Below, one piece after another: positions 55,497 to 60,767 of a stretch of 64,000 nt of DNA; within the stretch, counting starts at the first letter, position 1, and every line of letters begins with the position of its first letter. The stretch comes from Nodularia sp. (in: cyanobacteria) (lineage in GTDB: Bacteria; Cyanobacteriota; Cyanobacteriia; Cyanobacteriales; Nostocaceae): contig REBL01000159.1 of the NCBI GenBank assembly GCA_007692755.1, positions 1 through 64,000 of the forward strand, written 5' to 3'. Below the pieces are notes generated by a model. It saw nothing but the letters and a program-made list of their open reading frames with translations, did not search any database and was not told the DNA's origin. The position numbers and the translations under genes are program-made.

Positions 55497-56678
55497 TTAT
55501 TTGTTAGACTGTAAAAATTTCTGCAAAGCCGCTTGCATTTTTGGTTGTTGAATATAAACTTCTGCCGCCTCAATTAAATTATTGATATTCTCTTCACTCA
55601 CATCATCAATATCATCACTTAAGGGTTTACCCGTTAACTCCCTATCAAGCCTAAATTGCAACCGTAAAACCCGCTCATCAATAATTTTATTAGTGATGTA
55701 CTCATGAACAATTGAAGAAGCATCCAACAACACACCGATGATCGGCTGGGCCCATTGTAACAGCCCCCAGCCTTGCGCTTTTTCAAATGGGATGATTCGT
55801 GTGAGGTCTCCAGTACCTATGGAGAGAACGCTAATATCTTCAATTTTATGCCCTAATCTTAGAGCTTCCGCAATTGCACAGCTAGAGGGGTTATTAGCCG
55901 CAATACCACCATCAATTGCAGAGTAGATACTTTTAATTGAATAGCTAGAGGTGTTATCGGGGATATGTTCCCAAGGAGAATCTATTAAAGCTTGTCGTTT
56001 TCTTCCTTCATAGTTTTTGATAGTACGAGTTTGACCTTTCCCTGTGCCACTGGTTATCCTAATCTGGATATTGTTATATATATTACTAGTTGAACATGAC
56101 TGTTCACATAATGTTATGGAATCCGCAGTTGCACCTTGCGCTGTTCCATTGATTCTTTTTTCTAGTTTATGTGCCGGGAAAAAAGTTGGAGCAGAAGCCG
56201 AACAAAGACAGGCTTCCCATAAAGGCACATTGCCATAACTAGCATCTTCATGCCAGCTTTTAAATACTATTGGCTCTCTGCCAATGGTATCGTAAGCAAA
56301 TATTAATAGTAACAGATCGGTAATATCTAATAGTTTGGTATTTCCTAGAATGTCTCTGAGGACTGTAGTCAAACCCTCATCTGAAAATTTGGGAGCAGAT
56401 AAACCATACTTTAGTAGTAAAGGAATTCGCTTCAATGAAAAACGACTTCTGTAAGGGAAAATAACAGCGCCTTTTTCTTTATATATTTCAATAATTTCTT
56501 CGCTAGTTAGTCCTGCCGCAATCCCAGCTGCTAAAATTGACCCTGTAGAAGTTCCAGCAATTAAGTCAAAGTACTTGTTTAAAGGTTGACCAATTTCCTT
56601 CTGAATTTCCGCCAGCATCTTTGCGGCAATTACTCCGCGAATACCCCCACCGTCTAAACTTAAAATCCGAAAGGGCAT
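55497..56678 (-). CDS. Patatin-like phospholipase with an inserted GTGxGQxRTI module
   Basis: LSLDGGGIRGVIAAKML, GTSTGSILA nucleophile elbow, AIDGGIAANNPS catalytic Asp; insertion at residues ~176-248. Confidence 0.9.
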   Translation of the reverse strand: MPFRILSLDGGGIRGVIAAKMLAEIQKEIGQPLNKYFDLIAGTSTGSILAAGIAAGLTSEEIIEIYKEKGAVIFPYRSRFSLKRIPLLLKYGLSAPKFSDEGLTTVLRDILGNTKLLDITDLLLLIFAYDTIGREPIVFKSWHEDASYGNVPLWEACLCSASAPTFFPAHKLEKRINGTAQGATADSITLCEQSCSTSNIYNNIQIRITSGTGKGQTRTIKNYEGRKRQALIDSPWEHIPDNTSSYSIKSIYSAIDGGIAANNPSSCAIAEALRLGHKIEDISVLSIGTGDLTRIIPFEKAQGWGLLQWAQPIIGVLLDASSIVHEYITNKIIDERVLRLQFRLDRELTGKPLSDDIDDVSEENINNLIEAAEVYIQQPKMQAALQKFLQSNK

Positions 56679-56771
56679 ATCTAACTAAACTCCGTGTAAT
56701 ATTATTATTAAGTAATAGCTTTTAATATTTACCATTGTCAAGTTAGAAAATTAACTTTCGGTTGATTGGCA

Positions 56772-56876
56772 ATTGGCGATAACACTACTATTGGTGCTGG
56801 TAGCGTAGTTGTTAAACATATTCCGGCAAATGTTGTTGCTGCTGGCAATCCTTGCCGAATTATTCGGCATTTATAA
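56772..56876 (+). pseudogene. 3' remnant of a hexapeptide-repeat (LbH) sugar O-acetyltransferase
   Basis: Frame reads IGDNTTIGAGSVVVKHIPANVVAAGNPCRIIRHL*, the canonical C-terminus of maltose/galactoside O-acetyltransferases; no upstream domain. Confidence 0.75.
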
Positions 56877-57327: not shown

Positions 57328-57966
57328 TCAATTTCCTATTTGCTGTTTTACCCAATCACGGAAAGAGCGAATCATTGGTATTTCCCCAATATTTAGACTT
57401 TCTTGCAGAAATCGGGGAATTTCAGTTGTTAAAGGCAGATTGGCAAAAGTCGGCGAAACATCACAAGGAAGATATACACCTTCTCCCAATTGGTAAATCT
57501 GCATTACAGGTTCCTCATAACGCCAAACCTCTGGTACACCCAAAGCCTGATATATAGGAAGTCGGTCAACAGAAGTGCTGGTGTAGTCTACCTCAATTAC
57601 TAAATCAGGTGGTGGATCTTGGCTTAAATCGAGATTTTGCTGATGACGCATCACAGGTTCATTCTGGATGTAAAAACTCGAATCTGGTTCCACACCCCGC
57701 TGTAAGTCCTGGCGCTTACAAGTCACGGAACCAGTGCTTTTTAGGTTGAGGTTGAGTTCCTCCGCCAAAGCAAAAACTAAGTGTTCCAGCAGTCTATTAT
57801 TATGCTCATGGGGCATTAAAGGAGTGATAATTTCCAGGGTTCCGTGGTCATAAGCCAGACGCGTCGCCCGATTATCCCCCATTTGCGCGAGGATAGTTTC
57901 AAAGGTATGCCAACTGATGTTGGACAGTATGGCGCTTTGGGAATGAGTGGGTGCAGTCATCACCAT
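57328..57966 (-). CDS. Uma2 family (DUF820) putative endonuclease, copy 1
   Basis: GTLEIITPLMPHEHNNRLLEHLVFALAEEL, DSSFYIQN, PPPDLVIEVDYTSTS PD-(D/E)XK core. Confidence 0.85.
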   Translation of the reverse strand: MVMTAPTHSQSAILSNISWHTFETILAQMGDNRATRLAYDHGTLEIITPLMPHEHNNRLLEHLVFALAEELNLNLKSTGSVTCKRQDLQRGVEPDSSFYIQNEPVMRHQQNLDLSQDPPPDLVIEVDYTSTSVDRLPIYQALGVPEVWRYEEPVMQIYQLGEGVYLPCDVSPTFANLPLTTEIPRFLQESLNIGEIPMIRSFRDWVKQQIGN

Positions 57967-58029
57967 AGGACTTATCCTCCGGTTTTCTACCAAGATATCA
58001 AAGAAATGAGCAGGCGATCTCGCCTAACT

Positions 58030-59798: not shown

Positions 59799-60437
59799 TC
59801 AATTTCCTCTTTGCTGTTTTACCCAATCACGGAAAGAGCGAATCATCGGTATTTCCCCAATATTTAAACTTTCTTGCAGAAACCGGGGAACTTCAGTTGT
59901 TAAAGGCAGATTAGCAAAAGTCGGCGACACATCACAAGGAACATATACACCTTCTCGCAACTGGTAAATCTGCATTACAGGTTCGTCATAACGCCAAACC
60001 TCTGGTACACCCAAAGCCTGATATATAGGGAGTCGGTCAATCGAAGCGCTGGTGTAGTCTACCTCAATTATCAAGTCAGGTGGTGGGTCTTCGCTTAAAT
60101 CGAGATTCTGCTTACTTCGCATCACAGGTTCATTCTGAATGTAAAAACTCGAATCTGGTTCCACACCCCTTTGTAAATCTTGGCGCTTAAAAGTCACAGA
60201 ACCAGTGCTTTTCAGATTGAGATTCAATTGTTCTGCTAGATTATCAATCAACTTTTCTATCAGTCTTTTATTATGCTCATGGGGCATTAAAGGAGTGATA
60301 ATTTCCAGTGTTCCGTGGTCATAAGCCAGGCGCGTTGCCCGATTATCCCCCATTTCTGCGAGGATAGTTTCAAAAGTGTGCCAACTAATGTTTGACAGTA
60401 TGGCGCGTTGGGAATGAGTGGGTGCAGTCATCACCAT
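59799..60437 (-). CDS. Uma2 family (DUF820) putative endonuclease, copy 2
   Basis: Near-identical to 57328-57966, including flanking DNA. Confidence 0.85.
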   Translation of the reverse strand: MVMTAPTHSQRAILSNISWHTFETILAEMGDNRATRLAYDHGTLEIITPLMPHEHNKRLIEKLIDNLAEQLNLNLKSTGSVTFKRQDLQRGVEPDSSFYIQNEPVMRSKQNLDLSEDPPPDLIIEVDYTSASIDRLPIYQALGVPEVWRYDEPVMQIYQLREGVYVPCDVSPTFANLPLTTEVPRFLQESLNIGEIPMIRSFRDWVKQQRGN

Positions 60438-60767
60438 AGGACTTATCCTCCGGTTCTCTAGCAAGATATCAAAGGAGTTAGCAGGCGATCTGCTTTACAG
60501 CAGTGCGATCGCCTCTTGGTTAACCTACTCTTAGTGAATATCATTACATATACTACTTGACGACGTTAAGATGCAGGTGTATAGTAAAGAAAATAAATAA
60601 ATTCAGTATAATAACCCAGCAAAAACTATTGCTTAGGGAAAATTTTTAGTATATATTCATAAATAGTTAATGAGAAGCCCCTCCTTACATAGTAATAGGG
60701 GCATTGTTGCTTAAATTTGTTTAAATAATCAACTTCATGCAGTTGGACTAAACTGCTCTAATTAATT

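Follow-up and report, generated by a model that had tools for sequence, protein, structure and literature searches.

A patatin-like lipid acyl hydrolase gene of Nodularia sp., found in a 64,000-nucleotide stretch of contig REBL01000159.1 (the window), carries an insert of ~73 residues that is truly homologous to a module inside phage tail proteins, with a likeness far above chance; domains inserted in such proteins are its nearest relatives. An ordinary bacterial enzyme, chromosomally encoded in filamentous cyanobacteria, seems to have taken in a structural piece of virus type and to have retained it under selection. Within our limited reach into subscription papers we found no description of a patatin with an inserted barrel in the literature.

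The open reading frame has no N-terminal extension ahead of its catalytic motif and scores 86 bits against PF01734 (curated cut-off 27.7), with the Pfam match ending at residue 175. Judged by its motifs (Table 1), the enzyme is intact and is predicted to be a lipid acyl hydrolase; in the oxyanion loop, D9, G10–12, R14 and G15 are invariant across 17 orthologues. An obvious secretion signal is absent from the sequence, and the protein is probably located in the cytosol. The thylakoid and plasma membranes of cyanobacteria contain glycolipids and, since the patatin has no obvious secretion signal, these glycolipids are the first candidates for its natural ligands. The recurring neighbours of the gene are menD, folB, ccbP, an acetyltransferase gene and a gene for a response-regulator protein, and the patatin more probably serves as a housekeeping lipase than as an effector in defence. 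Close by, on the plus strand (56,766–56,873), lies a remnant of a maltose O-acetyltransferase-like gene comprising the last 36 residues (89% identical), a gene that is intact next to the patatin in a genome of the same genus (G080). Further along the window, two related open reading frames of equal length on the minus strand (57,328–57,993 and 59,799–60,464), the first of the Uma2 family, stand on either side of an amine oxidase gene.

Table 1. Features of the patatin gene, with positions in the window.
Feature	Residues	Position	Strand	Basis
Patatin-like lipid acyl hydrolase, 393 aa		55497–56678	minus	PF01734 profile match; full-length orthologues 59–90% identical
Oxyanion loop DGGGIRG	9–15	56634–56654	minus	sequence
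Nucleophile elbow GTSTG, Ser44	42–46	56541–56555	minus	invariant in 17 orthologues
Hairpin strand before the insert, AHKLEKR	169–175	56154–56174	minus	alignment with insert-free orthologues
Inserted module, predicted small β-barrel of phage-tail type	176–248	55935–56153	minus	sequence, profile and model comparisons
Hairpin strand after the insert, KSIYSAI, leading into Asp256	249–255	55914–55934	minus	alignment with insert-free orthologues
Catalytic DGG, Asp256	256–258	55905–55913	minus	D256 and G257 invariant in orthologues

The preliminary description of this DNA had placed the insert in a stretch that is normally contiguous in patatins, and its reading frame, coordinates and sequence proved exact to the base. 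The insert lies between ...SAPTFFPAHKLEKR and DGGIAANNP, and seven residues separate its end from the catalytic Asp256. A solved CBASS-type phospholipase aligns to patatin residues 3–172 and 255–314 and skips the insert; because the alignment holds on both sides, the interruption is real. Alignment with insert-free orthologues shows that the insert takes the place of the tip of one β-hairpin just ahead of the catalytic Asp, where these proteins have a short turn, such as AHQLKTQ-SKTYSAIDGG. The insert-free orthologues of the order (L190–L209), which are up to 71% identical over the N-terminal 174 residues, share the hairpin but have the plain turn AHQLKTQSKTYSAIDGG where the studied patatin has the barrel. 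What splits the patatin is a domain that is missing from most patatins.

The kinship of the insert with phage tail modules is seen both in single sequences and in profiles. In tblastn searches, the insert matched a T4-gp8-like baseplate protein of Ochrobactrum phage vB_OspM_OC (6e-8, 41%), a protein of Microcystis phage Mae-JY22 whose gene is the second one downstream from that for the tape measure (2e-5), and a Paenibacillus tail sheath protein (4e-4). When a profile made only from 14 viral modules was run against the patatin's own genome, the insert was its sole match in 5.56 Mb (E 7.9e-22), and hhalign related a patatin-only profile to a phage-only profile with 99.8% probability (E 4.9e-29). 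Both results bear out the likeness to phage structural proteins noted in the preliminary description. A pattern scan of viral contigs, for which alignment A3 was used as A1 was too diverse, placed the module at no fewer than 247 viral loci. Eighty of these loci were read. The module sits internally in viral reading frames for proteins of the tail. It interrupts the PHROG families phrog_376 (tail), 438 (baseplate wedge), 457 (tail), 11439 (tail fibre), 290 (minor tail) and 23 (sheath), and further viral proteins that bear it include nozzle, gp8 and sheath proteins. The patatin insert resembles the phage modules in its sequence (34–44% identity over ~70 residues), its predicted fold and its internal position within a host protein. 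Unlike them, it interrupts a cellular enzyme and not a part of the virion, and the patatin inserts group apart from the viral ones. No family in Pfam, NCBIfam or PHROGs names the insert, its weak matches to tail sheath, LoaP and an AAA model being unconvincing. Other members of the module likewise found no convincing match in Pfam (the best, 0.002 to an AAA model, is chance-like), and a sequence search of the PDB with the insert returned chance matches only.

From modelling, the insert is predicted to be an independently folding small β-barrel. In an AlphaFold-type prediction of the insert alone (AlphaFold modelling was a check that the preliminary description had proposed), it forms seven strands with a pLDDT of 93.6. 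The full-length model is confident over most of the insert (block means mostly 88–97) and weak in the patatin core (mean pLDDT 65); the alignment behind this model was too uniform, and the placement of the barrel in the patatin was not taken from it. Compared with models of viral proteins in BFVD, the insert model gave 19 matches at E ≤ 1e-3, with an rmsd of 0.7–0.8 Å for three of the best, and it superposes on viral models at 0.7–0.9 Å overall with up to 43% identity. Three BFVD entries labelled Mimivirus (A0A1X9VNT2, A0A1X9VNQ1 and A0A481Z1A5) have a structurally matching domain, and by these models the module may reach giant viruses. The PDB entry closest in fold is that of the RcGTA hub (TM 0.81, E 0.012); lower-ranking matches include the insertion barrel of the LKA1 gp49 tailspike (TM 0.59, E 0.034), along with proteins from the tail tip or baseplate of Chi and JBD30. 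These fold matches have E values of 0.01–0.03, and the insert also resembles unrelated barrels (Uba1, V-ATPase).

The RcGTA hub and LKA1 gp49 domains, which the insert may resemble in fold, are small β-barrels set into another fold, and the LKA1 barrel flanks the active site of an enzyme; neither has detectable sequence similarity to the insert. In the LKA1 paper, the six-stranded inserted barrel is described as deepening the substrate groove and sending Arg329 to the active site, and its role is also called unclear (PMC5701251). The RcGTA hub domain has been labelled oligosaccharide-binding on the grounds of similarity (PMC7296036). That report also credits the LKA1 insertion domain with demonstrated sugar binding, which the available portions of PMC5701251 do not show. 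The sugar-binding label of barrels of this type is a lead, not a fact, for the patatin insert.

The explanation that best fits the whole, and to which we give somewhat better than even chances, is that of a lipase with a CapV-like core in which a hairpin tip has been replaced by a phage-tail-type barrel acting as a recognition or lid domain beside the active site. In this mechanism, the self-folding barrel that replaces the tip ahead of Asp256 would, judging by distance along the sequence, stand near the mouth of the active site. There it would help to determine the lipid or surface that the enzyme engages, one candidate target being the sugar head groups on glycolipids of cyanobacteria, and its action would be analogous to that of the LKA1 barrel on its groove. 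The patatin core does not need the barrel, since insert-free orthologues exist and one orthologue (L037) has lost most of the barrel in frame. Of the earlier proposal that the insert serves ligand or surface recognition, for example in sensing phage, recognition is the best reading, while the phage-sensing part found no support, as set out below.

A search for other patatins with the insert, also suggested at the outset, found full-length insert-bearing orthologues in 58 of 193 genomes of the same family (~30%) and in 24 of 391 genomes of the order, spread over five families, with Scytonema, Tolypothrix and Calothrix among the named relatives. In ∼52 of the 391 order genomes, relatives match only around the insert, and all 20 that were fetched are insert-free; across the phylum, 10 of 386 genomes have any match. 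The preliminary description had reasoned that occurrence in housekeeping patatins throughout cyanobacteria would speak against its proposal, and this holds by half: the insert is common in one family and occurs here and there in four others, but ∼50 of the sampled genomes of the order have an insert-free version. On the tree of the patatin core, its presence and absence require five state changes. Constraining the inserts to a single clade gave a p-AU of 0.671 and a tree better by 12.8 lnL over 72 columns; since this constraint is not rejected, the data fit one capture followed by several losses. The insert was probably captured once, in an ancestor within the cyanobacterial order, is old there and was later lost several times, and separate captures (for example that of L156) are possible. 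The L037 orthologue (genome G048), which retains ∼11 residues of the module with its frame intact, is a secondary loss. When a phage-borne patatin was sought as the vehicle, the main relatives found were patatins of Wolbachia WO and four viral contigs.

The insert is under purifying selection, with a median omega of 0.29 against 0.16 for the patatin core (NG86, 275 non-independent pairs). Its rate of change is about twice that of the core (mean identity 53% versus 72%), and this pace, together with the five changes on the tree, the coexistence of insert-free and insert-bearing orthologues in the order, and the in-frame loss in L037, would fit a barrel that is mere surface decoration tolerated by the enzyme, originating as a stretch of phage tail gene that landed in a length-tolerant hairpin and having stable folding as its only role. 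We regard this reading as possible and give it a clear minority of our credence: the omega value, the retention of the insert in nearly a third of the same-family genomes, and the motif residues G, Q, R, Y, W and P, which are invariant across families, all argue for a function.

It is rather unlikely, in our judgement, that the insert is a domesticated virion module working as a ligand-gated switch, one that would bind a glycan, a glycolipid or a tail part and then open or direct the adjacent active site. In the patatin, nature provides a clear example of a structural module of virus type that became fixed in an enzyme of the cell and has been maintained in several families; the insert-free orthologues serve as natural controls. 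Being small and soluble, the enzyme makes testable the ligand question of a widespread, unnamed tail module that is in no Pfam family despite its many viral loci.

The patatin core matches the PADLOC model of CBASS phospholipases (7.6e-74) and, marginally, NF041079 (204.6 bits, cut-off 200), and it shares its fold and catalytic motifs with the CapV-type CBASS phospholipases (NF041079; 9KH7, 8ZR9). The solved CapV relatives 9KH7 and 8ZR9, in contrast, have no barrel, and, unlike in a CapV-type system, neither the genome nor the neighbourhood of the studied patatin yielded a cyclase. A search for the SMODS CD-NTase (PF18144) gave no match in its own genome (92% complete) or among the neighbours of the gene, and membership in CBASS was rejected because no cyclase was found. 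The core matches would fit a phage sensor, a membrane-damaging effector of CapV type that is activated through its tail-like barrel when phage tail proteins assemble in the cytoplasm, and there is a precedent in DSR2, which senses the tail tube protein of a phage (PMC11263360). We consider such a sensor improbable: besides the lack of a CD-NTase match, the insert is inherited within an ordinary chromosomal gene and shows no sign of rapid adaptive change, and the neighbours (menD, folB, ccbP) are housekeeping genes. With this synteny and no CBASS cyclase found in the genome, the phage sensing proposed in the preliminary description is without positive support, despite the CapV-like core.

The module is not strictly viral, as it also occurs in cyanobacterial RHS/YD-repeat and β-helix proteins. 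In one family of the order (f5), it lies inside RHS/YD-repeat proteins of ∼2250–2360 aa (residues 1285–1350 of L163 and 1662–1725 of L165) and interrupts β-helix (pectate-lyase-like) proteins (L162, L164 and L167), as it does in Klebsiella phage phiKp_32. These proteins would suit the reversed direction, an old bacterial surface-protein domain taken up independently by phages and by the patatin, which we think has little chance of being correct given the contrast between 247 viral loci and the 12 of a more extensive scan of genomes (near-identical, slightly stricter patterns; viral and cellular sets unequally sampled), the resemblance of the six non-cyanobacterial cellular loci to phage-type tail or sheath proteins, and the rarity of any match in the phylum. 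In a tail sheath protein of Paenibacillus cellulosilyticus (L173/L035), the module sits between the sheath domains.
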